Shown: positions 5,329 to 21,243 of the stretch, one piece after another
Layout of the letters: every line of letters starts with the position of its first letter
How positions within the stretch are numbered: the stretch's first letter is position 1
Assembly: GCA_017412675.1 (NCBI GenBank)
Contig: JAFPWV010000152.1
Location: 1 to 44,589, forward strand
Direction of reading: 5' to 3'
Origin: Clostridia bacterium
GTDB taxonomy: Bacteria > Bacillota > Clostridia > Oscillospirales > CAG-272
DNA: 44,589 nt
Made by a program: the position numbers and the translations under genes
The notes under the pieces: generated by a model
The model's database searches: none
Told to the model about the DNA's origin: nothing
What the model saw: only the letters and a program-made list of their open reading frames with translations

Positions 5329-7611
5329 TCACTGGATCTCCGCCTTCGCCTGCATCCCGTCCTCGCCCCACGCCCAGAGCGACGCGCTGCCGGTGACGCG
5401 GAGGTAGACGACGGCGCGGGAGGCGAAGGTGCGGCGGGTATGGGAGGAATACGGCGTGAGATCGTCCGGGCGTCCGTTCTCGATCCCGAGGATCTCCGCA
5501 CAGCCGAGTACCTGATACCGGATCTCCGTGTCGCGGGATGCGGGATGGCCGTTCGCGTCGAGGAGGCGCACCTCGATCTGCGCGATCCCGTCCGTCACCG
5601 GGCGTCCGGCGTCGAGCGAAATGACGGCGGGCTCCCCGGAAGTCACGAGCGTGTCCGACGCGCCTGATACCTCAGCCCGCAGCTCACCCGGCGCGAAGGG
5701 GACCTCGAACCGGATCCGCCACGGGTCGTCCGCCGACGCCTGCTTTTTGCCGAGGGATTCGCCGTTCAAGAAGAGCTCGGCCTCGCCCGCGTTCGTGTAG
5801 CAGGACACGCGCATGAGGCGGCCGTCCTCGTCGTTCCACGCGAAGCGCTCCATGTCCGGCCAGTCCCATTTGGCGTCCGCGTGACCGACGGCCAGCTTCA
5901 CGAAGGGCTCGTCCGTCCACATCGCGCGGCGGTGCCAGTACCCCGGCTTCTCGAAGGCGCAGAGGTCGAGCACGCCCGCCTGGGAAATGCGGCGCGGCCA
6001 GCCGGGGCATTCGCCGAGAAAATCGATGCCCGTCCAGAGGAACTGCACGGCGATATAATCGTGATCGAGCACGGCCTGCCACTCGCGCGCGCCCTTGCCG
6101 TTCTCGCTGCCGAAGATCACCCGGCCGGGATACGCCGCATGGTCCTCCTCGTAGAACTTTTCCTTGTAGTTGTACCCGACGACGTCGAGCGCGTCCGCGA
6201 ATCCCGTGCGGTTCGAGAGCTCGGGGAAGGACAGGGCGCTCGTGACGGGGCGGGTCGTGTCCAGCGCGTGGACGATGTCCATGAGTTCCCGCGCGATCAC
6301 GGCGAGGCGGGAGGCGTCGGGCTTTCGGACGTCATACATCCGCTCGGCGGCGGGCTTGTTCGCGTCGTTGTTGCCGAGGACCTCCCGGAAGAGCGGCGTG
6401 ACATAGGGATCGTTCGGATAGTCGATCTCGTTCCCGATGCTCCAGAGGATGACCGAGGGGTGATTGCGGTCGCGCTTCACCATCGCCTCGAGGTCCGCGC
6501 GGTGCCAGAGCGGGAAATCCTCCGCGTAGCCGAAGCGCTTCGGCGGATAGACGTTGTGCCCCTGCCACCACTTGTTCTTCGCGCCTTCCCACTCGTCGAA
6601 GGCCTCGTCCATCACGAGAAATCCCATCTCGTCGCAGAGATCGAGCAGGCGGGGGTCCGGCGGGTTGTGCGCCGTGCGGATCGCGTTGCAGCCCATCGAT
6701 TGGAACTTCTCGAGCCGCCGCCGCCACACGTCCTTCGGGACCGCCGCGCCGAGAGCTCCCGCGTCGTGATGGACGCAGACGCCTTTGAGCTTCATCGGGA
6801 CGCCGTTCAGGAAAAAGCCCCGGTCCCCGTCGAAGCGGAACGTGCGGATGCCGATCCTGACCGCCGCCTCGGACATGGCCGCCCCGTTTTTCATGGCAGA
6901 AGCCGTCAGGGTGTAGAGATTCGGATCGTCCGCCGACCAGAGATGCGCCGCCGGAACGGTCAGGTGCGCGATGCCGCTCCCGCCGTCGGAGGACGTTTCC
7001 GCCGCGACGCCACGCTCATCCTCCAGGGTGAAGCGCGCACCGTCGCCGCCCGCGGTCTCATATTTGATCCTCAGGATCGCCCGGCCGTCCTCCTCGACCG
7101 ATTCCGTCGAGACGAAGAGCCCGCCGTCCTCGAAGGAGACGGGATCGGTGACGGTCAGGGTGACGTCGCGGTAGATGCCCGAGCCCGTGAACCAGCGGGA
7201 GTCCGCGACCTCGTTGTGCTCCACGCGCACCGCGATCACGTTTTCCCCCGGCCGCACGAACGGCGTGACGTCGAAGGTGAACGTCGAATACCCGTACGCG
7301 CGCCCGCCGAGGTAGTTGCTGTTGATCCAGACCGACGCGTGCTTGTAGACGCCGCCGAAGGTGATCCGCACCCGCTTGCCCGCCGCGTCCTCCGGCAGCT
7401 CGAAGTGCTTCCGGTACCACGCGGTGCCGCCCGGGAGATAGCCGGTCCCGCTCGCGTTCTTCCGGTCGAAGGGATGCTCCACCGACCAGTCGTGCGGGAG
7501 GGTGACGCGCCGCCATGCACGGTCGTCCCAGCCCATGTAGTCCGCGCCCGGCTCGTCTCCGAGATGGAAGAGCCAGTTCTCATTCAGATTGCCCGGTACG
7601 CCTTGTTTCAT
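5329..7611 (-). CDS. GH2 beta-galactosidase-like enzyme
   Basis: 760 residues with the GH2 order: jelly-roll sugar-binding domain (about 1-150), immunoglobulin-like domain (155-260), TIM barrel (265-550) and C-terminal beta domains (ending with a bacterial Ig-like segment). Catalytic acid/base Glu395 lies in SIGNEIDYP and nucleophile Glu503 in FGSENGKG. The substrate motif NPPDPRLLDLCDEMG is typical of GH2 galactosidases and glucuronidases. There is no signal peptide, so it should act inside the cell. ATG 7611 has GGAGG 6 bases upstream; the longer frame to 7707 runs across the promoter and is rejected. Beta-galactosidase is the best guess, though other GH2 activities are possible. Confidence 0.88.
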   Translation of the reverse strand: MKQGVPGNLNENWLFHLGDEPGADYMGWDDRAWRRVTLPHDWSVEHPFDRKNASGTGYLPGGTAWYRKHFELPEDAAGKRVRITFGGVYKHASVWINSNYLGGRAYGYSTFTFDVTPFVRPGENVIAVRVEHNEVADSRWFTGSGIYRDVTLTVTDPVSFEDGGLFVSTESVEEDGRAILRIKYETAGGDGARFTLEDERGVAAETSSDGGSGIAHLTVPAAHLWSADDPNLYTLTASAMKNGAAMSEAAVRIGIRTFRFDGDRGFFLNGVPMKLKGVCVHHDAGALGAAVPKDVWRRRLEKFQSMGCNAIRTAHNPPDPRLLDLCDEMGFLVMDEAFDEWEGAKNKWWQGHNVYPPKRFGYAEDFPLWHRADLEAMVKRDRNHPSVILWSIGNEIDYPNDPYVTPLFREVLGNNDANKPAAERMYDVRKPDASRLAVIARELMDIVHALDTTRPVTSALSFPELSNRTGFADALDVVGYNYKEKFYEEDHAAYPGRVIFGSENGKGAREWQAVLDHDYIAVQFLWTGIDFLGECPGWPRRISQAGVLDLCAFEKPGYWHRRAMWTDEPFVKLAVGHADAKWDWPDMERFAWNDEDGRLMRVSCYTNAGEAELFLNGESLGKKQASADDPWRIRFEVPFAPGELRAEVSGASDTLVTSGEPAVISLDAGRPVTDGIAQIEVRLLDANGHPASRDTEIRYQVLGCAEILGIENGRPDDLTPYSSHTRRTFASRAVVYLRVTGSASLWAWGEDGMQAKAEIQ

Positions 7612-7651
7612 GAGATCCTCCGTTATCTGCCAGAGAGATTGCTTTCGGTCC

Positions 7652-7680
7652 ATTATAGCATACTCCCGCGCCGAAATCAA
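7652..7680 (-). promoter_or_regulatory. Promoter of the GH2 gene (minus strand)
   Basis: On the minus strand TTGATT (7675-7680), 17-bp spacer, TATAAT (7652-7657). It is divergent from the aconitase promoter 21 bp away. Confidence 0.85.
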
Positions 7681-7700
7681 CAGAAAAAAGCGGCTTTCCC

Positions 7701-7729
7701 TTGACATCTTCCGCCCCGTGTGGTATAAT
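7701..7729 (+). promoter_or_regulatory. Promoter of the aconitase-isocitrate dehydrogenase operon
   Basis: TTGACA at 7701-7706, 17-bp spacer, TATAAT at 7724-7729. Both boxes are perfect. The leader before the ATG is about 60 nt and A/T-rich. Confidence 0.92.
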
Positions 7730-7795
7730 TATCGCATCCTTGCGCCGGATATTAAAAAATCAAGAATAATTATACATACAGAAGGAAGAATACTC

Positions 7796-9748
7796 ATGGG
7801 ACTCACACTCGCGGAAAAGATCCTGAAAGCGCACACCGTGGACGGCGTCTTTGAAAAGGGGCGGGAAATCGGGCTGAAGATCGACCAGACCCTGACGCAG
7901 GACGCCACCGGGACCATGGCCTACATCGAGTTTGAAGCGATGGGCATCGGCCAGGTGAAAACGGAGAAAAGCGTCGCCTACATCGATCACAACACCCTGC
8001 AGTCCGGCTTCGAGAACGCCGACGACCACCGCTTCATCGCCTCCGTCGCGAAGAAGCACGGGATCTGGTACTCCCGCCCGGGCAACGGGATCTGCCATCA
8101 GGTCCACCTCGAACGCTTCGGCGCGCCGGGGAAGACCCTGATCGGCTCGGACAGCCACACCCCGACGGGCGGCGGCATCGGCATGATCGCGATCGGCGCG
8201 GGCGGCCTCGACGTGGCGGTTGCAATGGGCGGCGGCGCGTATTACATCACCTATCCGAAGATCGTCAACGTGAAGCTCTCGGGGAAGCTCTCCCCGTGGG
8301 TCTCGGCGAAGGACGTCATCCTGAAGCTCCTCTCGATCCTCTCGGTCAAGGGAGGCGTCGGGAAGATCATCGAATACACCGGCGAGGGCGTCGGGACCCT
8401 CAGCGTTCCGGAGCGCGCCACGATCACCAACATGGGCGCGGAGCTCGGGGCGACCACCTCGATCTTCCCCTCCGACGAGCGGACGCGCGCCTTCCTCAGA
8501 GCCGAGGGCAGGGAGGACGTCTGGGTCCCGCTCGCGGCGGATGAGGACGCCGTTTACGACGAGGTCGTCGCGATCGATCTCTCGTCGCTCGAACCGATGG
8601 CGGCCTGTCCGCACTCCCCGGACAACGTCAAAACCCTCGGCGAGATCAACGCGGCGGCGGAGGGCGGGCGGATGAAGATCGATCAGGTCTGCATCGGGTC
8701 CTGCACCAACTCCTCCCTCGCCGATATGCTGAAGGTCGCGTACATCCTCCGGGGGAAGACCGTTCACCCCGACGTCTCCCTTTCCGTCTCGCCCGGCTCG
8801 AAGCAGGTTTTGACGATGATGGCCGGGTGCGGCGCGCTCGAGACGATCCTCTCGGCCGGGGCGCGTCTGCTCGAATCCGCCTGCGGTCCCTGCATCGGCA
8901 TGGGCCAGTCCCCGAACTCCGCGGGCATTTCGCTCCGCACCTTCAACCGCAACTTTGAAGGCCGCTCCGGAACGAAGGACGCGCGGGTCTACCTCGTCTC
9001 TCCCGAAGTGGCGGCGGCGTCCGCGGTGGCCGGGTATCTCTGCGATCCGCGCGCGCTCGGCGACATGCCCGCCTTCGTTCTGCCGGAGCAGTTCACCGTC
9101 AACGACAACATGATCACCCCGCCCGCCCCGCCGAAGGAAGCGGACAGCATCGCCGTTCTGCGCGGGCCGAACATCCGGGAATACCCGAAGACCGCCCCTC
9201 TCGCCGATCATCTGCGCGCCGAGTGCGCTCTCAAGGTCGGGGACAACATCACGACCGACCACATCATGCCGGCCGGCGCGAAGATTCTGCCATTGCGCTC
9301 GAACATCCCGGCGATCTCGAAACATTGCTTCGCCGTGTGCGACGAGAGCTTCCCCGAACGCGCGCTCGCCCTCGGTCAGAGCATCGTGGTGGGCGGCTCG
9401 AACTACGGGCAGGGTTCCTCCCGCGAGCACGCCGCCCTCGCCCCGCTCTATCTCGGCGTGAAGGCCGTGATCGTCAAATCCTTCGCCCGCATCCACCGCC
9501 AGAACCTCATCAACGCGGGCATCCTGCCGCTCGAATTTGTCGAGGAGGCGGACTACGACACCGTCTCGCAGGGCGACATCCTTGCCGTCGAGGATCTGCG
9601 CGAGCAGGTGGAGGCGGGCGGCCCGATCACCGTGAAGAACCTCACGAAGGGGAAGTCCTTCGAGACGAAGTGCGAGCTGAGCGAGCGGATGCGCGCCATC
9701 CTCCTCTGCGGCGGTCTGCTCGACTATACCAAGGCCAATCTGAAATAA
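7796..9748 (+). CDS. acnA: Aconitate hydratase (Aquifex-type aconitase)
   Basis: 650 residues, the length of the compact aconitase form found in Aquifex and many Clostridia. It isomerises citrate to isocitrate with a 4Fe-4S cluster. Cluster cysteines are Cys303 (GSCTNSS) and Cys363 and Cys366 (ACGPCIG). The N-terminal part shows GSDSHTPTGGG (117-127). The C-terminal swivel domain contains NITTDHIMPAGAKILP and NYGQGSSREHAA, which carries the substrate-binding Ser-Arg. The ATG at 7796 follows GAAGGAAG; the longer frame crosses the promoter. It lies 10 bp before the isocitrate dehydrogenase gene and is co-transcribed with it, giving two consecutive steps to 2-oxoglutarate. Confidence 0.96.
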   Translation: MGLTLAEKILKAHTVDGVFEKGREIGLKIDQTLTQDATGTMAYIEFEAMGIGQVKTEKSVAYIDHNTLQSGFENADDHRFIASVAKKHGIWYSRPGNGICHQVHLERFGAPGKTLIGSDSHTPTGGGIGMIAIGAGGLDVAVAMGGGAYYITYPKIVNVKLSGKLSPWVSAKDVILKLLSILSVKGGVGKIIEYTGEGVGTLSVPERATITNMGAELGATTSIFPSDERTRAFLRAEGREDVWVPLAADEDAVYDEVVAIDLSSLEPMAACPHSPDNVKTLGEINAAAEGGRMKIDQVCIGSCTNSSLADMLKVAYILRGKTVHPDVSLSVSPGSKQVLTMMAGCGALETILSAGARLLESACGPCIGMGQSPNSAGISLRTFNRNFEGRSGTKDARVYLVSPEVAAASAVAGYLCDPRALGDMPAFVLPEQFTVNDNMITPPAPPKEADSIAVLRGPNIREYPKTAPLADHLRAECALKVGDNITTDHIMPAGAKILPLRSNIPAISKHCFAVCDESFPERALALGQSIVVGGSNYGQGSSREHAALAPLYLGVKAVIVKSFARIHRQNLINAGILPLEFVEEADYDTVSQGDILAVEDLREQVEAGGPITVKNLTKGKSFETKCELSERMRAILLCGGLLDYTKANLK

Positions 9749-9758
9749 GGAGCGCGTC

Positions 9759-10958
9759 ATGGACCGGATTTCAATGAAAACGCCCCTCGTCGAGATGGAC
9801 GGGGACGAAATGACCCGCGTGATCTGGCAATGGATCAAGGACATCCTGATCCTGCCCCACGTCGCGCTGAAAACCGAATACTACGACCTCGGCCTGAAGA
9901 ACCGCAACGAGACGGACGACCGGGTGACCGTCGAGTCCGCCGAAGCCGCGCTGCGTCTGGGCGTCGCCGTGAAGTGCGCGACCATCACGCCGAACGCCGC
10001 GCGCGTGAAGGAATATGACCTCCGGGAGATGTGGAAATCCCCGAACGGGACGATCCGCGCGATCATGGACGGCACCGTCTTCCGCGCGCCGATCCTCGTA
10101 AAGGGGATCGAGCCGTACATCCCGACGTGGAAGAAGCCGATCACCATCGCCCGCCACGCCTACGGCGACGTCTACAAGAACACCGAATCGACCGTGCCGA
10201 AGGGCGGCCGCGCGGAGCTCGTCGTCACGGATACCGAGGGAAACGAGACGCGGCAGCTCATCCACGATTTTGCCGCCTCCGCCGGGATCGTGCAGGGCAT
10301 CCACAACCTCGATTCCTCCATCGAGAGCTTTGCCCGGTGCGCGTTCCGGTACGCGATCGACACGAAGCAGGACCTCTGGTTCGCCGCGAAGGACACGATC
10401 TCGAAGACGTACGACCACCACTTCAAGGACGTCTGGGCGGACCTCTACGAGCGCGAATACCGGGAGACTTTCGAGAAGCTCGGGATCACCTATTTCTATA
10501 CGCTGATCGACGACGCCGTGGCGCGCGTGATCCGCTCGGAGGGCGGGTTCATCTGGGCGTGCAAGAACTACGACGGCGACGTCATGAGCGATATGCTGGC
10601 GACGGCATACGGCTCGCTCGCGATGATGACCTCGGTCCTCGTCTCCCCGACCGGCGCGTACGAATACGAAGCGGCGCACGGGACGGTCCAGCGGCACTAC
10701 TATAAGTATCTCGCCGGGGAGGAGACCTCGACGAACAGCGTGGCGACGATCTATGCCTGGACGGGGGCGCTCCGCAAACGCGGCGAGCTCGACGGGACGC
10801 CGGATCTCATCGCCTTCGCCGGCCGGCTCGAGGACGCGTGCGTCAAAACCATCGAGGAGGGCACGATGACCGGGGATCTCTATCTCCTCTCGAAGCTGCC
10901 CGCGAAGAGGAAGGTCAACACGCGGGAATTCCTCGAAGCCGTCGCGGAAAAGCTCTGA
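9759..10958 (+). CDS. icd: NADP-dependent isocitrate dehydrogenase (eukaryote-like homodimeric type)
   Basis: 399 residues, close to the subfamily II enzymes related to eukaryotic IDH1/IDH2 rather than E. coli Icd. It oxidises isocitrate to 2-oxoglutarate and CO2. Visible signatures are EMDGDEMTRVIW at the N-terminus, YDLREMWKSPNGTIR, and HGTVQRHY, whose Arg-His pair binds the 2'-phosphate of NADP in this family. Metal-binding acidic residues are in IDDAVARVI and NYDGDVMSD. AAGGAG lies 9 bases before ATG 9759. With aconitase it supplies 2-oxoglutarate and NADPH, likely for glutamate synthesis; no 2-oxoglutarate dehydrogenase is nearby. Confidence 0.96.
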   Translation: MDRISMKTPLVEMDGDEMTRVIWQWIKDILILPHVALKTEYYDLGLKNRNETDDRVTVESAEAALRLGVAVKCATITPNAARVKEYDLREMWKSPNGTIRAIMDGTVFRAPILVKGIEPYIPTWKKPITIARHAYGDVYKNTESTVPKGGRAELVVTDTEGNETRQLIHDFAASAGIVQGIHNLDSSIESFARCAFRYAIDTKQDLWFAAKDTISKTYDHHFKDVWADLYEREYRETFEKLGITYFYTLIDDAVARVIRSEGGFIWACKNYDGDVMSDMLATAYGSLAMMTSVLVSPTGAYEYEAAHGTVQRHYYKYLAGEETSTNSVATIYAWTGALRKRGELDGTPDLIAFAGRLEDACVKTIEEGTMTGDLYLLSKLPAKRKVNTREFLEAVAEKL

Positions 10959-12776: not shown

Positions 12777-13115
12777 GTGGAATCGATGGTCGGATTCCTC
12801 CTGGCCGCGGCAGCCGGATGCGCGGTGTCGGCGGTCAACTACGGCTTGACGAAACAGGCGATGACGAAGAGCGGAGGCCTTGTCGGCGCGCTGTCCGTCA
12901 TCCGGATGCTCCTCTCGGCCGGACTGCTCGCCGGGGTGTATTTCCTCGCCCCGCACACGCCGTGGGACCGCATCTGGATGCTCGTCGGCGCGGCGGCCGG
13001 GCTCACCGTCCCGATGTTCTTCTTCACCTTCCTCCTCGTGCGCCGCGCAAACGCGCAGAAGGAGGCAGAGGAACGGCCCGATCCCGAACACAAGCAAGGA
13101 GGCGAATCCTCATGA
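12777..13115 (+). CDS. AtpI-like membrane protein heading the ATP synthase operon
   Basis: 112 residues with about three membrane helices (5-23, 35-58, 66-88) and a charged, hydrophilic C-terminal tail. Size, topology and position ahead of atpB match the ATP synthase I (UncI) family, which helps assemble the c ring, but sequence similarity is weak and the call rests mostly on context. The start is GTG 12777 with AGGAGG 8 bases upstream. Its stop TGA overlaps the ATG of atpB (ATGA), which indicates translational coupling. Confidence 0.65.
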   Translation: MESMVGFLLAAAAGCAVSAVNYGLTKQAMTKSGGLVGALSVIRMLLSAGLLAGVYFLAPHTPWDRIWMLVGAAAGLTVPMFFFTFLLVRRANAQKEAEERPDPEHKQGGESS

Positions 13116-13786
13116 GCGAACCTTCCGAAGTCCTCATCCCCATCGGCGGGATCCTCGACGTCACGGGCGAAGTGGTCGCCATGTGGGTCCTGCTCGCGCT
13201 CCTCGCCGTCCTCTCCGTCCTCGCGACGCGGAACATGAAGGAGCGGCCGGGCAGGTTCCAGAACATGGTCGAGTGCGGGATCGAATACCTTGACAACTTT
13301 TTCTCCGGCATCATCGGGAAGCATCTCGCGCGCAAGTACTTCTTCTTCCTCGGCTCCCTCTTCATTTTCATCCTTTTCGCCAACTATTCCGGTCTGATCC
13401 CGGGCGTCGGCCTCACGAAGTACTTCGCCGCGCCGACCTCGTCCCTGTCCGTCACGCTCGGGCTCGGGCTCTCGACCTTCTGCTTCCTCCAGATCGCGGG
13501 ACTTCGCGCCGGGGTGAAGCACTACTTCAAGCGCTTCATCAGCCCGATCGCGTTCATGCTCCCGCTGATGGTCCTCGACGAATTCATCAAGCCCGCGTCC
13601 CTCGCCCTGCGCCTCTTCGGCAACGTCTTCGGCGAGGAGACCGTCACCCATAACCTCTACGACCTTCTTCCGATCGGCGCGCCGGTCATCATGATGGCGC
13701 TCTCCCTCCTGTTCTGCGCGATCCAGGCGGTGGTCTTCACCATGCTGACCTCCATCTACCTCGAAGAAGCCGTTGAGGCCGAATGA
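13112..13786 (+). CDS. atpB: ATP synthase F0 subunit a
   Basis: 224 residues with five or six hydrophobic segments. It forms the two half-channels that lead ions to and from the c ring. The essential stator arginine is Arg167 in LALRLFGNVFGEE, followed by the fifth and sixth helices. AAGGAGG stands 8 bases before the ATG, and the first codon overlaps the stop of the upstream gene. The next gene, atpE, begins 44 bp further on. Confidence 0.95.
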   Translation: MSEPSEVLIPIGGILDVTGEVVAMWVLLALLAVLSVLATRNMKERPGRFQNMVECGIEYLDNFFSGIIGKHLARKYFFFLGSLFIFILFANYSGLIPGVGLTKYFAAPTSSLSVTLGLGLSTFCFLQIAGLRAGVKHYFKRFISPIAFMLPLMVLDEFIKPASLALRLFGNVFGEETVTHNLYDLLPIGAPVIMMALSLLFCAIQAVVFTMLTSIYLEEAVEAE

Positions 13787-13830: not shown

Positions 13831-14061
13831 ATGGATCGTTCCGCATTGATCGCCCTCGCCGCCGCCCTGTCCATCGCGGTGAGCACCATCTTCCCGGCTC
13901 TCGGGCAGGGAATGGCCGCCAAAGCCGCCATGGAGAGCATCGCCCGTCAGCCCGACGCCGCGAAGGATATCCGCTCGACGCTCATCATCGCCCTGTCCCT
14001 GATGGAGGCGCTCACCATCTACGGCCTTCTCATCGGGTTCATTCTGGCCGCGAAGGTCTGA
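13831..14061 (+). CDS. atpE: ATP synthase F0 subunit c
   Basis: 76 residues in two membrane helices joined by the polar loop ARQPDA. The ion-carrying acid is Glu59 in LSLMEALTIYG. This segment nearly matches the chloroplast and cyanobacterial c subunit (LAFMEALTIYG), which is proton-driven. The Ser-Thr pair that follows the Glu in sodium-type rings is Ala-Leu here, although the Gln of helix 1 (Gln26, GQG) is kept. AAAAGGAGG lies 8 bases upstream. Proton coupling is therefore inferred. Confidence 0.95.
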   Translation: MDRSALIALAAALSIAVSTIFPALGQGMAAKAAMESIARQPDAAKDIRSTLIIALSLMEALTIYGLLIGFILAAKV

Positions 14062-14072
14062 GGAGGCGCCCT

Positions 14073-14492
14073 ATGACGGTTCAACTGCCCGTCGTTCTCT
14101 GGACCGTGATCTGCTTCTGCCTCCTCATCGTCATCCTCAACCGGCTCCTGTTCCGCCCCATGCTCGCGTTCATGGACGCCCGTGAGGAGAAGATCCGCCG
14201 CGGCCGTGAAAAGCGCGACGCGGACGCCGAGGCGGTGAAGACGGCGGAGGAGGCCCTCGAGACCTTCCGCCGCGAGGAAGAAGCGCACCTCGATGCCCTC
14301 GCCCGCGAAACCGTTGCCGAAGCGCGCCGGGAGGCGGACGAGATGACGGCACGCGCCGCCCGGGAAGCCGCCGAAGCGGTGGAGGGCTGCCGCGTACAGC
14401 TCGAAGAGGATGCGAAGGAGATCGCACAACAACTCGACAAACGCACGGAGGAGCTGGCCCGCGCCTATCTCTCCGCGCTGACCGGCGTTTGA
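14073..14492 (+). CDS. atpF: ATP synthase F0 subunit b
   Basis: 139 residues, a little shorter than the usual 155-170. One membrane helix (about 5-27) is followed by the conserved [17 protein letters not shown] and a long charged helix that forms the peripheral stalk with its partner. Here the partner is evidently the b-like N-terminus of the next protein. AGGAGG lies 6 bases before ATG 14073. The stop is one base before the start of the next gene, so translation should be coupled. Confidence 0.92.
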
Positions 14493-14493
14493 T

Positions 14494-16734
14494 ATGCTGC
14501 ATTTTGTATATTCGATCATCAATTTTCTGATCCTCGCCGCCATCCTCTTCCTTCTGGGGCGCAAGACGGTGCTCGCGATCTTCCGGGGACGCCGGGAGCG
14601 GATCGGGCGGGCGCTCGACGAGGCCGAGGAGGCAGCGCGGGAGACGGCAATCCTTCCGGTGATCCCGGAGGCTTTTTCCGATGCCGTCCCTCCCTCCGCC
14701 GTCGAAGAGGCCGAGGCGATCCGGGCGGCTGCGCGGCTGCAGGCTGAGGCGGCAGGGAAGAGCGCTGAGGACACCATGCTCGGTCTGCGGCGCGAAATGC
14801 TCGCCGACGAACGCGCCCGCCTCATCGATAAGATCGTCGCGCGCGCGGCGAAGCTGACGCTCGAAGAGCCGTATCGGTCCGCGATCCGCGCGAAGGAAGA
14901 GGCGTTCGCCGACGAGATCATCCGGCGGATGGAGATAACCCCCGGCGACGTCGCCTACCTGAGACACCACGATCAGCTCTACGTCACCCTCACCTCCGCC
15001 CATCCCCTCCCGCAGTCGATCGTCGACCGCATCGGCGAGCGCGCGGAAGAGATGCTCGCACAAATCGGCGGCAGGCCCTCCTACTGGGTCAAGGAGGATC
15101 CCGAGCTCATCGGCGGCCTGCGCTTCCGCGTGGGCGACACCGTGTATGACTTCACCGTGGCGGACCGCCTCTATCAGCTCCGCCGCGATCTCGAAAAGCG
15201 CGAGCTCTCCGGGAACGAGGACGCCGACACCGTGATCCGCGACCTCTTCGAGGGGATCGCCTCGATGGACGGCGGGATCAGCGAATTCCAGCTCGGCCGC
15301 GTGCTGAGCGTCTCCGACGGCATCTGCTGGATGGACGGTCTGGCCGATATCATGTACGGCGAGGTCGTGGAATTCGAGTGCGGGGAGCGCGGCATGGTCC
15401 TCGACATCGAAGCGGACCGCATCGGCTGCGTGATCTACGGCCGGTACGAGCGCGTGGAGAGCGGCACGAAGGTGCGCCGGGTCGGGCGGATCGCGAGCGT
15501 TCCCGTGGGAGAGGACCTCCTCGGGCGCGTGGTCGATCCCCTCGGACATGCCCTCGACGGCCGTGGCCGCATCTTCGAGCACGAACGCCGCCCGATCGAG
15601 TGTCCCGCGCCCTCCATCCCGGACCGCGCCGCCGTCTCCCGTCCGCTGCACACCGGCATCCGCGCGATCGACGCCCTCGTCCCGATCGGGAAGGGCCAGC
15701 GCGAGCTCATCATCGGCGACCGCCAGACGGGGAAATCCTCCATCGCCATCGACGCGATCATCAATCAGCGGGGCACCGGCACGGTCTGCATCTATGTGGC
15801 GATCGGGCAGAAGGATTCGACCGTCATGGAGATCCGCGACCGGCTGACGAAGGTCGGCGCGATGGACTACACCACCATCGTCTGCGCCCCGGCCTCGTCA
15901 TCGGCGTCGTTCCAGTATATCGCGCCGTTCGCCGGAGCCGCGATGGCGGAATACTTCATGTACAAGGGGCAGGACGCCTTGATCGTGTACGACGATCTCT
16001 CGAAGCACGCCGTGGCATACCGCGAGCTCTCGCTCCTCCTCGGACGTCCGTCCGGCAGAGAGGCGTATCCGGGCGACGTGTTCTATCTCCATGCCCGGCT
16101 CCTCGAACGCGCCGCGCAGCTCTCGCCCGAAAACGGCGGCGGCTCCGTGACCGCGCTCCCGATCATCGAAACACAGGCGGGCGACATTTCCGCCTATATC
16201 CCGACGAACGTCATCTCGATCACCGACGGCCAGATCTTCCTCGATTCCGACCTCTTCAACGAGGGGCAGCGTCCGGCGGTCAACGTCGGCCTGTCCGTGT
16301 CCCGCGTGGGAAGCGCGGCGCAGACCCGGCTCATGAAGCAGGTGTCCTCGCGCCTCCGCATGGATCTCGCGCAGTACCGCGAGCTCGCGGGCTTCACGCA
16401 GTTCGGCTCCGACGTGGACGCCGCGACGAGGAAGGTCCTCGCGTCCGGGCGGCGGATGATGGCTGCGCTCAGGCAGCGTCGGTTCGATCCGCTCCCCGAC
16501 TGGAAGCAGGTCCTCCTCATCTTCGCCGTCTCCGAAGGACTGGCGGAGGACGTCGACCTGGAGGACATGGAGGACTGGGGACACGCGCTCGCCGAACGCC
16601 TCGAAGCGAAGCACCCGACGGAGACCGCATGGCTCCTCAGCGGGGGGAAGCTCACGCCTGAGCAGGCGGAATCGCTCCGTCATGCCGTGGAAGACTGCCT
16701 CGCCGATCGGGCAGAGGAAACGGAGGCCGCCTGA
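14494..16734 (+). CDS. atpA: ATP synthase b'-delta(C-terminal domain)-alpha fusion protein
   Basis: 746 residues in one unbroken frame. Residues 1-30 are a b-type membrane helix followed by [17 protein letters not shown] and a charged stalk (30-158). Residues 160-233 are the C-terminal domain of delta/[30 protein letters not shown] and [10 protein letters not shown] match its core. Residues 245-746 are a full alpha subunit with Walker A GDRQTGKS (408-415). The roughly 105-residue N-terminal OSCP domain is absent, and no separate delta gene exists in the operon. No ribosome site precedes ATG 14494; it lies one base after the atpF stop. Internal candidates GTG 15232 (GAGGA upstream, 500-residue product) and ATG 15265 (GAGGGG upstream) could give free alpha. 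Domain identities are clear; the assembly model is inference. Confidence 0.95.
15217..15234 (+). promoter_or_regulatory. Possible internal ribosome site and GTG start for free alpha subunit
   Basis: GAGGA (15217-15221) is followed after 10 bases by GTG (15232-15234), codon 247 of the fusion. Initiation here would yield a 500-residue protein, the normal alpha length, that still contains the N-terminal alpha helix ([10 protein letters not shown]). A second weaker option is GAGGGG (15250-15255) before ATG 15265. Unproven. Confidence 0.35.
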
Positions 16735-17573
16735 TGGCATCGCTCCGCGAACTGCGCAAACGGCTTGACAGCGTCCGGATGACCGGCCAGATGGCGGGCG
16801 CGATGAAGACGGCGGCGGCAGCCGGATACGCCCGGTTCAACGCCGCGCTCGCCCGCTTCACGGCGTATGCGGAAGCCTGTGACGAAATGCGGGACCGCTT
16901 CGGCGACGCGCTCGGGGCGGCATATCCCGTCACGGATCCCGGGGCGCCGCCCTGTTTCATCGTGCTCGGCGCGGACCGGGGCCTCTCGGGCGGCTACAAC
17001 ATCAACCTGTACGATTACGCGGACGCGATCCTCGCCGAAGCGGGAGAATTCCGCCTCTTCGTCGCGGGACGGCACGCCGCCGCACATTTTCGCGAGCGCG
17101 GGATCGAGCCCGTCTCGGAATTCACCCTCGCCGACGCGATCCGGTACGAGGACGCCGGCCGGATCCTCGAAAAGGCGGTCAACATGCTCCGGACGGGGGA
17201 GATCTCCTCCGTCACGATCCTCTGGCAGCGGTTCGTCAACATGCTCACCCAGGTCCCGGACCGGTTCCCGCTGCTGCCGATGCAGCCGTCGGGGTCACAG
17301 ATCCGCGGCGGGGACGCGCTCTTTCTGCCGGACCGCGACACCGTGCTCTGCCAGGCGGCCGCGGCGTGCGTCGGAGCGGATTTCTACGCCCGCGTACTCG
17401 AAGCGGGGGCCGGGAGCCAGGCTGCGACGCTCGTGACCATGCGTGCGGCCTATGACAACGCCGAGACCTCGTCCGCAGAGCTTTCCGCCGACATCAGCCG
17501 CCTGCGCCAGAGCGAGGTGACGTCGAGCGTGATCGAAACGTCCGGCGGCAATCTGCGCGGCAGACCCGAATAA
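16734..17573 (+). CDS. atpG: ATP synthase F1 subunit gamma
   Basis: 279 residues, normal length. The N-terminal helix SLRELRKRLDSVRMTGQMA and the C-terminal helix around TMRAAYDNAETS form the coiled-coil rotor axle. The central Rossmann-like domain contains the conserved GADRGLSGGYN. ATG overlaps the stop of the fusion gene (TGATG), so the two are translationally coupled. The last segment is TSGGNLRGRPE, whereas many homologues end soon after EI.SGA.A; the difference is minor. Confidence 0.94.
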   Translation: MASLRELRKRLDSVRMTGQMAGAMKTAAAAGYARFNAALARFTAYAEACDEMRDRFGDALGAAYPVTDPGAPPCFIVLGADRGLSGGYNINLYDYADAILAEAGEFRLFVAGRHAAAHFRERGIEPVSEFTLADAIRYEDAGRILEKAVNMLRTGEISSVTILWQRFVNMLTQVPDRFPLLPMQPSGSQIRGGDALFLPDRDTVLCQAAAACVGADFYARVLEAGAGSQAATLVTMRAAYDNAETSSAELSADISRLRQSEVTSSVIETSGGNLRGRPE

Positions 17574-18995
<1,422 letters not shown>

Positions 18996-18996
18996 G

Positions 18997-19296
18997 ATGG
19001 CAGAGCTCCCCGTCACCCTCATCCTCTCCGCTCCCGACCGCGAACCCGTCTCCGTCCGCTGCGATTCCGTGCACCTGATCGCGTGCGACAGCCGGGACGG
19101 CAGGCATGCGGGCGGCAGCGTCGGCATCCGCAGGGGACATGTTCCCGCGCTCATCGCCGTCGCTCCCGGACCCGTGCGGGCGTTCGCCGAAGGACGCGAG
19201 ATCTTTTCCTCCGTCACGTCCGGCGGGCTCGCGTCGGTCGCGCACAACCGCGTCACGCTCATGACGGAGCGCTTTTCCGATACCCTACAACCATAA
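18997..19296 (+). CDS. atpC: Short ATP synthase subunit epsilon (C-terminal helices absent)
   Basis: 99 residues against 130-140 in most bacteria. What is present is the N-terminal beta-sandwich: a ligand-like GSVGIRRGHVPALIAVAPGPVRAF corresponds to G-x-x-G-x-x-x-G-H-x-P. The frame stops where the two C-terminal helices would begin, with no frameshift seen downstream. These helices inhibit ATP hydrolysis in many bacteria, so this enzyme should lack that brake. ATG lies one base after the atpD stop. Confidence 0.88.
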   Translation: MAELPVTLILSAPDREPVSVRCDSVHLIACDSRDGRHAGGSVGIRRGHVPALIAVAPGPVRAFAEGREIFSSVTSGGLASVAHNRVTLMTERFSDTLQP

Positions 19297-19314: not shown

Positions 19315-20670
19315 ATGGCAGACGCAATCATCAAAGGGATGCACGGATGCAGCCGCGAGGACGAATACGTAGTTCCCGCCGATCCCCGGATCCGGGAGAA
19401 ACTGGAGTGGTTCCAGGATCAGAAGCTCGCGCTGATGATGCATTTCGGCATCTATTCGACGCTCGGGCTCTGCGAATCGTGGCCCCTCGTCGACGGGGAC
19501 GCCGAATGGAGCCGCAACGAGGTCGACTGGGAGAGCGATCCGGAAATCATCAAGGAGCAGTACCGGAATCTCAACAAGTGCTTCAATCCCGCCCGCATCC
19601 GTCCCGAGGTCTGGGCAGACGTTGCCGCGCGCAACGGCTTCCGCTATTTCATCTTCACGACGAAGCACCACGACGGATTCTGCCTCTTCGACTCCCGGTA
19701 CACCGACTACAAGACCACCTCGCCCGACTGCCCGTTCCATACGCACAAATACGCCGACGTCACCAAGGCCGTGTTCGACGCCTTCCGCGCGCGCGGGATC
19801 GCCATCGCCGCGTACTTCTCGAAGCCCGACTGGCACTGCCCGTGGTACTGGACCCCGGGGATGGACAAGCCGGTCGCCGCGGACCGCAACCCGACCTACA
19901 AGCCCGCCGAACACCCCGAGCTCTGGGAAAAGTTCGTCGAATTCACGCACAACCAGATGATGGAGCTTGTGCGGGACTACGGGCCGATCGACATCCTCTG
20001 GCTCGACGGCGGACAGGTGCGCCCGAGCAACGGCCAGGACATCCGCCTCTCCGAATTCGTGAAGAAGGCCCGCGAGATCAACCCGACCCTCCTCACGGCG
20101 GATCGCACCGTCGGCGGCGAGAACGAGAACTACATCACGCCAGAGCAGAGCGTCCCGGCCGGACCGATCCGGGTGCCGTGGGAGAGCTGCGTCACCGTCG
20201 GGTACGCCGTCTCCTACCGCTTCAATGAGCGCTACAAGACCTCCCGTCAGCTCGTGCATCTTCTGATCGACGTCGTCTGCCGCGGCGGCAACCTTGCTTT
20301 GAACATCGCGCCGCAGCCCGACGGGACCCTCCCCGCGGACGCCGTGAAATCGGTCGACGGCATGGGCGACTGGCTCCGCGAGAACGGCGAGGCGATCTAC
20401 GGCACGCGGCTGGCCGACCCGAACGAGGACGGGACCACCGCCTTCACGAAGAAGGGCGACGTGTATTACGCCCTCGTGCGCCTGCCGGAGGGAGAACGCC
20501 TCGGCGAGACGCTCACGATCCCGTGGCCGCATGAGGCGAACCGCCTGACACTTCTTTCGCTCGGCGGGGAACTCGCCTTCGAGCGCACGGACGCGGGCCT
20601 CGTCGTGAAGGTGCCCGAGATCCTCAGGGGACACAACCCCATCGCCCCGGTCATCCGGATCGAGAAGTGA
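19315..20670 (+). CDS. Alpha-L-fucosidase (GH29)
   Basis: 451 residues of a GH29 TIM barrel. It retains MMHFGIYSTLG, TTKHHDGFCLFDS (115-127) and the nucleophile Asp231 in DILWLDGGQ. A short beta-sandwich ends the protein. There is no signal peptide, so it should cut fucosyl oligosaccharides in the cytoplasm. AAGGAGG precedes ATG 19315. It begins only 18 bp after atpC and no promoter or terminator was seen between them, so it may be the last gene of the ATP synthase transcript. The terminator at 20696-20733 ends the unit. Confidence 0.93.
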   Translation: MADAIIKGMHGCSREDEYVVPADPRIREKLEWFQDQKLALMMHFGIYSTLGLCESWPLVDGDAEWSRNEVDWESDPEIIKEQYRNLNKCFNPARIRPEVWADVAARNGFRYFIFTTKHHDGFCLFDSRYTDYKTTSPDCPFHTHKYADVTKAVFDAFRARGIAIAAYFSKPDWHCPWYWTPGMDKPVAADRNPTYKPAEHPELWEKFVEFTHNQMMELVRDYGPIDILWLDGGQVRPSNGQDIRLSEFVKKAREINPTLLTADRTVGGENENYITPEQSVPAGPIRVPWESCVTVGYAVSYRFNERYKTSRQLVHLLIDVVCRGGNLALNIAPQPDGTLPADAVKSVDGMGDWLRENGEAIYGTRLADPNEDGTTAFTKKGDVYYALVRLPEGERLGETLTIPWPHEANRLTLLSLGGELAFERTDAGLVVKVPEILRGHNPIAPVIRIEK

Positions 20671-20695
20671 TCCGTCAAACCGCAGAAAACAACAG

Positions 20696-20733
20696 AACGC
20701 CTGCGATCCGCAATGGGAACCGCAGGCGTTTTT
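20696..20733. terminator. Bidirectional terminator after the fucosidase gene
   Basis: AACGCCTGCG (20696-20705) pairs with CGCAGGCGTT (20721-20730) and TTT follows. The left flank is AACAG/AAAACAACAG, so the minus strand also has a T-rich tail for the convergent desulfoferrodoxin gene. Confidence 0.9.
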
Positions 20734-20756
20734 CTGTTCACTTTGCCGGTCCGCGC

Positions 20757-21131
20757 TTACGCCTTCCACAGGCTGTGGAGGTTGCAGTAGGCGTAGACGG
20801 CTTCGACCTCGTCACCCTCGCAGAGCGCGAAGCAGACCTCGGGCTTGTCGCCGGGATTCAGGGCTTTGCGCTGGTTGCCGAATTTCGTCTGGAGCGATAC
20901 CCATTCGATGTAATGCTCTGGGAGCATCGGATGCGCGACGCTGCCGACGCGGACGGTCACGCAGTTGCCTTCTACTTCAAAAACAGGTACGTGCTTTTCG
21001 ACGGCGGCGTCCGTCGTGCCGGGGATGATCTGCTTCATCGGCTTGCCGCAGCACATCACGGGCACGCCGGTTTTCTTCACGACCGCGATGATCTGGCCGC
21101 AGGTCTCGCAGCGGTAAAACATCATTTCCAT
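20757..21131 (-). CDS. dfx: Desulfoferrodoxin (superoxide reductase, two-iron type)
   Basis: 124 residues, the full family length. The N-terminal desulforedoxin-like centre has Cys8, Cys11, Cys27 and Cys28. The C-terminal superoxide-reducing iron site has His47 (EKHVP), His67 and His73 (HPMLPEHYIEW), Cys116 and His119 (CNLHSLW). It reduces superoxide to hydrogen peroxide without making oxygen, a defence typical of strict anaerobes. ATG 21131 is chosen because AGGAGG lies 9 bases before it; upstream in-frame codons fall across the promoter. It is a single-gene unit. Confidence 0.95.
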   Translation of the reverse strand: MEMMFYRCETCGQIIAVVKKTGVPVMCCGKPMKQIIPGTTDAAVEKHVPVFEVEGNCVTVRVGSVAHPMLPEHYIEWVSLQTKFGNQRKALNPGDKPEVCFALCEGDEVEAVYAYCNLHSLWKA

Positions 21132-21214
21132 CGGTTTCGTCCTCCTTGGATGTTGGATGGTTCCGGATGCCGGACGGCGCGGAAGCGGATCCCCCGCGTT
21201 CCGGCTCCGTTTCC

Positions 21215-21243
21215 ATGATACCATGAATTTGCGTCGCTGTCAA
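21215..21243 (-). promoter_or_regulatory. Promoter of desulfoferrodoxin (minus strand)
   Basis: On the minus strand TTGACA (21238-21243), 17-bp spacer, TATCAT (21215-21220). No PerR- or Fur-type inverted repeat was noticed around it. Confidence 0.87.

Follow-up and report, generated by a model that had tools for sequence, protein, structure and literature searches.

A recurrent b′-δ-α triple fusion in clostridial F-type ATP synthase operons and its possible multi-stalk architecture

An ATP synthase operon containing a three-part fusion

The window, meaning the whole 44,589-nucleotide stretch analysed here (contig JAFPWV010000152.1 of Clostridia bacterium assembly GCA_017412675.1), contains an ATP synthase operon in the order AtpI-like, a, c, b, b′-δCTD-α, γ, β, ε (Table 1; δCTD, C-terminal domain of δ/OSCP). 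Subunits a, c, b, γ, β and ε all lie beside α, as in a complete F-type operon, and the ion-site residues are intact. Subunit c carries Q in helix 1 and E-A-L-T-I-Y in helix 2, which by motif reads as an H+-type ion site and would point to H+ rather than Na+ coupling of the fused enzyme. Among distinct triple-fusion operons, the ion-site glutamate of c was present in all 84 that have a subunit c, and the conserved arginine of a in all 81 that have a subunit a. Upstream of the operon, at 7589-10958, an aconitase-family gene is followed by an isocitrate/isopropylmalate dehydrogenase gene; after it, at 19315-21224, lie a gene for an α-L-fucosidase and, in the opposite orientation, one for a desulfoferrodoxin.

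Table 1. Features of the ATP synthase operon in the window
Feature	Position	Strand	Length	Evidence and remarks
Small membrane protein, AtpI position	12777..13115	+	112 aa	GTG start; name positional
Subunit a	13112..13786	+	224 aa	PF00119 6e-46; conserved Arg is residue 167
Subunit c	13831..14061	+	76 aa	PF00137 4e-17 (scanned with longer 5′ end)
Separate subunit b	14073..14492	+	139 aa	PF00430 28.2 bits, cut-off 28 (scanned from 14079)
b′-δCTD-α triple fusion	14494..16734	+	746 aa	Frame, Pfam, recurrence in other loci
b′ part of fusion: transmembrane helix near residues 4-22, stalk as far as about residue 150	14494..14943	+		PF00430, PS3 b alignment, hydropathy
δ/OSCP C-terminal domain alone, residues 155-233	14956..15192	+		PF00213 profile positions 96-172 of 172
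Complete α subunit, residues 245-746	15226..16734	+		TIGR00962 697 bits for segment, cut-off 484.45
Subunit γ	16734..17573	+	279 aa	PF00231 3e-44; start overlaps fusion stop codon
Subunit β	17595..18995	+	466 aa	TIGR01039 762.5 bits
Subunit ε	18997..19296	+	99 aa	PF02823 3e-9; N-terminal sandwich only

Homologues of the first, small membrane protein occupy the same place in most of the 80 loci described below. The protein itself had no Pfam match over cut-off, and five homologues that were scanned gave weak and inconsistent matches, among which ATP-synt_I appeared once (E 0.018), so that its name is positional. The Pfam scan of ε found no match to the C-terminal domain. The top NCBIfam match of the separate b was a b′ model, at 74.5 bits and under the cut-off of 118 (scanned from 14079), and this protein is presumed to be the partner of the fused b′. 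Its stop codon ends 1 nt ahead of the fusion start, and 61 of the 78 loci have a spacing from b stop to fusion start in the range -20 to +12 nt, consistent with coupled translation.

The fusion is a single open frame. The initial annotation had read it as a b-type membrane helix and stalk, the C-terminal domain of δ and a complete α, and had suggested profile searches of these parts; all of the expected Pfam domains were found in order, with PF00430 slightly under its cut-off. PF00430 (ATP-synt_B) matched residues 4-94 (8.9e-6; 26.3 bits, against a cut-off of 28), and PF00213 (OSCP/δ) matched residues 155-233 over its cut-off (9.1e-10), covering profile positions 96-172 of 172. The α domains PF02874 (268-331), PF00006 (388-603) and PF00306 (610-734) all exceeded their cut-offs, and the whole chain scored 695.9 bits against TIGR00962 (F-type ATP synthase α; cut-off 484.45; profile 13-496 of 503). 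Although the b′ match falls below cut-off, both PF00430 and PF00213 were matched at E ≤ 0.01 by 19/19 aligned family members, and the family profile places residues 4-143 against positions 11-157 of b from Bacillus PS3 (1.2e-9). These results indicate that the b′ assignment holds and that b′ covers almost the whole stalk. Hydropathy showed one strongly hydrophobic segment, and a proline-bearing segment at about residues 50-68 may interrupt the stalk helix. The δ part consists of the C-terminal domain without the N-terminal domain, and the same was true of the OSCP match in all triple fusions listed (one set of 14 copies and one of 12, with two shared). The layout confirms that the peripheral stalk is covalently tied to the catalytic head, as originally proposed.

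Recurrence, hosts and ancestry of the fusion

A search of 59 genomes, including the window's own, identified the full-length fusion in 13 operons of 12 other genomes, with 61-92% identity. One of these genomes (G001) holds two different triple-fusion operons (L042 and L043), both of them full-length frames. A scan of a species-genome collection gave 143 pattern matches, of which 137 were confirmed as relatives and 80 loci were kept. Using profiles built from the family, b′, δCTD and α were found in one frame and in the same operon setting in 80/80 named loci; of these frames, 76 are intact (734-790 aa, median 739) and the other four are truncated where their contigs stop. Because 11 of the first 13 operons recur among the 80 loci, the sets are not independent; all triple-fusion loci retrieved amount to 88 distinct operons. 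The longest complete fusion, of 790 aa (L067, from 5571), has an extra acidic insert in its b′ stalk.

Recurrence bears directly on whether an assembly error or a chance frame joined separate b′, δ and α genes. The window's genome is fragmented (242 contigs), which would favour such an artefact, but the same junction occurs in 88 distinct operons, including the 80/80 named loci from varied samples, and we therefore reject this explanation as vanishingly improbable. The initial annotation had proposed a search of related genomes for α subunits of 700-780 residues, and complete fused frames of 734-790 aa were found; a stop and a start near 15195-15235, which would have undone the fusion, are excluded by the full-length frames in the 12 other genomes and the 80 loci.

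The record titles of the 80 loci name uncultured Clostridia, Oscillospiraceae, Christensenellaceae and Ruminococcus, and give rumen, colon, rectum, caecum, horse faeces and others as sample sources, with many from the guts of ruminants, deer, horses and rabbits. In an even sample of the window's order the triple fusion was carried by 18 of 394 genomes (own genome included; the frame of G175 is only 521 aa), and in even samples of the class (391 genomes) and phylum (398) it was found in the window's own genome only. In one locus from a record titled Prevotella sp. (L119), the triple-fusion operon runs into a 505-aa β, after which come an a of 350 aa and a further c; this may be a contig misjoined at the conserved β gene, or a transfer.

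On a phylogenetic tree, 50 triple-fusion α sequences fell on one side of a branch with support 100/100, and they form a clade provided that the root lies outside them. Some double (δCTD-α) fusions had long branches. Constraining doubles and triples together was not rejected, either with all doubles (p-AU 0.31) or with those of the order (p-AU 0.41), and constraining all doubles together gave p-AU 0.048. Given these values, we claim neither an independent nor a stepwise origin of the δ-α fusion.

Other F-type ATPases in the host genomes and known relatives

Other F-type α subunits (E ≤ 1e-15) and OSCP matches (E ≤ 0.001) were surveyed in 12 of the 18 order-sample triple-fusion genomes, namely those at least 91% complete. 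The fusion was both the sole F-type α and the sole OSCP match in nine of the 12 (G150, G027, G422, G054, G122, G093, G315, G380 and G294), and in G054, G122, G093, G380 and G294 only the fused α and its β passed E 1e-15. Two others (G124 and G405) also hold a canonical operon and the last (G411) a two-part fusion. Within the window's genus, where four triple-fusion genomes were at least 92% complete, a canonical α and δ were also found in G002, G016 and G024 and not in G013. Ten of these 16 near-complete genomes (12 from the order sample and four from the genus) contained no other δ by which a single stalk could be imposed.

The window's own genome holds a second, canonical F-type operon with separate δ and α (L034, G000:C36, 4242-10683). 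Its c subunit carries a GEG / E-T-T pattern and its ε has 89 aa. The E-T-T pattern is typical of Na+-type c, and the genome would then possibly encode two enzymes for two ions, with a Na+-type canonical synthase beside an H+-type fused one.

When a genome has no other α, either all three α sites of F1 are filled by the fused chain or the product is cut or re-started from the fused chain. Mixed assembly with canonical α was rejected as a general explanation because no other F-type α was found in 9/12 genomes, while such assembly is conceivable in the window's genome, in most of its genus and in three of the 12 order-sample genomes.

The accepted picture of an F-type ATP synthase includes a single peripheral stalk and a single a-subunit. 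The top PDB match of the fusion was chain I of 9JC1 (2.8e-178), an N-less δ-α fusion engineered in Bacillus PS3 FoF1 (Ueno et al. 2025, Nat Commun; PMC12229609). According to that paper, the δ N-terminal domain sits on the three-fold axis atop F1 and thereby allows only a single stalk, and the engineered enzyme carries as many as three stalks, every one of them with its a-subunit; its H+/ATP ratio was 5.8 compared with 3.0, and the threshold pmf was halved. The authors report two stalks on average, three being rarely seen by cryo-EM, with lower pump activity, and suggest that nature might use multi-stalk enzymes too. The natural fusion likewise lacks the δ N-terminal domain and joins δCTD to the α N-terminus. 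In gene architecture it resembles the Ueno type, PF00213 being matched at positions 96-172 only and inside the α chain. It differs from the engineered enzyme, which has a separate b dimer, in that b′ is also fused and the stalk is covalent with the head. Stalk number and H+/ATP were measured for the engineered enzyme, whereas the natural fusion is known here from its sequence.

Natural N-less δ-α fusions are listed in the Discussion of PMC12229609 (Acidaminococcus fermentans, UniProt G4Q3K6 and A0A1I2C5T3). They share the δCTD-α joint and, as far as the paper describes them, have no b′ in the chain. Similar two-part fusions were found in the window's order, with lengths of 571-603 aa (L018, L020, L021, L025 and L161), the δ part of L161 (in G411) resting on a weak PF00213 match. 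Another family of the phylum (f53) has two, one of 597 aa and one of 600 aa, beside which b is a separate protein of 173 aa. Two-part fusions occur in the same genus or order as canonical and triple forms (L021 of G020 in the window's genus; L161 and L051-L053 in the order).

In the mycobacterial b-δ protein, α is separate and δ is complete. Like that protein (PDB 7JG5 chain d; NCBIfam PRK13428), the fusion joins a b-type stalk to δ and is accompanied by a second, separate b. Membership was rejected, as the b′-δ segment scored 28.9 of 328 bits against PRK13428 and has no δ N-terminal domain. N-ATPase operons likewise have no separate full δ gene, and their b adjoins α (PMC5709465); β and ε come first in that operon and last in the fusion operon. 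Membership of this family was also rejected (TIGR03321, 25.1 of 224.7 bits; TIGR03324, 573.6 of 750.5 bits). Passages of the same source treat b-δ Rosetta proteins of Gordonia and Mycobacterium together with operon modules, and the triple chain does not appear in those passages.

The initial annotation had known of no described fusion including α. This must be narrowed, because the δ-α fusion is already described (PMC12229609). For the version with b′, searches of an open-access collection containing few subscription journals turned up no description of a b′-δ-α chain.

A candidate multi-stalk enzyme and competing readings

Our favoured reading, which we hold to be somewhat more likely than not, is that the fusion belongs to a natural H+-ATP synthase with several covalently locked stalks, suited to low motive force. 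The fused chain would serve as stator in a second F-type ATP synthase, one coupled to H+, with a b′ helix that begins in the membrane, climbs the side of F1 and joins a δCTD seated on its own α. Since F1 has three α subunits, three b′-δCTD arms per head would be expected and not one. Each arm would pair with one copy of the separate b, translated just upstream, and each could keep an a-subunit of its own in contact with the c-ring, for a predicted three a-subunits per enzyme. With all three working, the number of H+ per turn would equal the number of c-subunits multiplied by that of a-subunits, and the enzyme would run in low gear, using many H+ per ATP and making ATP even when the motive force is very low; run backwards, it would pump many H+ for each ATP. 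Both this gear ratio and the physiological direction are predictions from the proposed architecture.

By the relation given in PMC12229609, a c10-c15 ring with three a-subunits would yield an H+/ATP of 10-15 instead of 3.3-5 and a threshold of about 28-52 mV at 40-50 kJ/mol. The full version of the proposal has three covalent stators, each running from membrane to head, and three proton-conducting a-subunits held by them round one c-ring. This version, with H+/ATP close to the c-ring number and synthesis at about 30-50 mV, is more tentative, and we rate it slightly short of even odds. Three stalks can be unstable, as the engineered enzyme shows. A covalent b′ would counter loss of the stalk from F1, and it couples arm number to α number. 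The median length of subunit a was 224 aa in triple operons (n=97, a count that includes duplicate loci and some truncated at the end of a contig), 291 in double (n=5) and 251 in canonical operons (n=3); shorter a-subunits would fit crowding around the ring, with control sets too few to use.

If the reading is correct, these cells would have a motor with three side stalks, not one, and a different proton cost per ATP. The family provides a natural lineage in which the δ change made in the laboratory is present in at least 88 distinct operons, together with a fused b′, and several genomes yielded no F-type ATPase besides the triple-fusion enzyme. These operons allow a direct test of whether multi-stalk, low-gear ATP synthases operate in cells. 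The fusion would also serve as a scaffold that keeps stalks from simply coming off F1, which is the reported weak point of the engineered enzyme (PMC12229609).

For six pairs, dN/dS was computed part by part. It was 0.12-0.37 for the membrane helix (five pairs, the sixth not being computable), 0.15-0.35 for the stalk, 0.07-0.21 for δCTD and 0.07-0.15 for α. Thus b′, δCTD and α are under purifying selection. The δCTD-α linker was looser than its neighbours (0.27-1.09), as might be expected if a protease or an internal translation start freed α, and with it b′-δ, to give a canonical single-stalk enzyme. Codon 258 of the window's fusion is moreover an ATG that follows GAGGGG at plausible spacing, and GTG or TTG recurs at window residues 270 (32/79 frames) and 271 (29/79), although these residues are already inside the α barrel. 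Codon 258, however, is a start codon in only 13/79 frames and was rejected as an internal start because it is not conserved; a start codon with an SD-like word of at least 5 nt between residues 230 and 272 was present in only 15/79, and no conserved internal start was found at the junction, where no start codon was common to even half of the 79 frames. A freed b′-δCTD would also be without the δ N-terminal domain that anchors δ to F1. We consider such processing quite improbable.

Selection on the membrane helix and stalk likewise bears on the possibility that one arm alone pairs with b and an a-subunit while the other two b′ helices stay idle, the fusion being neutral or stabilising and H+/ATP normal. 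Function needs only one a-subunit, and single-, double- and triple-stalk particles are described for the engineered enzyme (PMC12229609). Against idle helices stand this purifying selection and the closely spaced b gene in most loci, and the δ domain that enforces one stalk is absent from every triple fusion listed. We regard one working stalk as unlikely, while giving it some real weight.

A multi-stalk machine might alternatively serve mainly as an ATP-driven H+ pump for pH balance, of high volume and low gradient, and not as a synthase. The ε C-terminal domain, often inhibitory of hydrolysis, is missing from the fused operon, and the hosts, judging from record titles, look like fermentative gut Clostridia. 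The missing domain is not specific, since ε is short in the genome's canonical operon too, and we think a role mainly as a pump unlikely. RnfC is part of an ion pump with a small driving force. It was found over cut-off in 13/14 genomes searched compared with 4/14 control genomes; this would suit a synthase that depends on a weak ion pump, and it does not prove direction. As RnfC is also present in G444, which has a two-part fusion, it says little about the triple-fusion enzyme or its direction. Among the genomes with the fusion as sole F-type α, 8/9 had RnfC over cut-off, which weakly favours a synthase over a pump.
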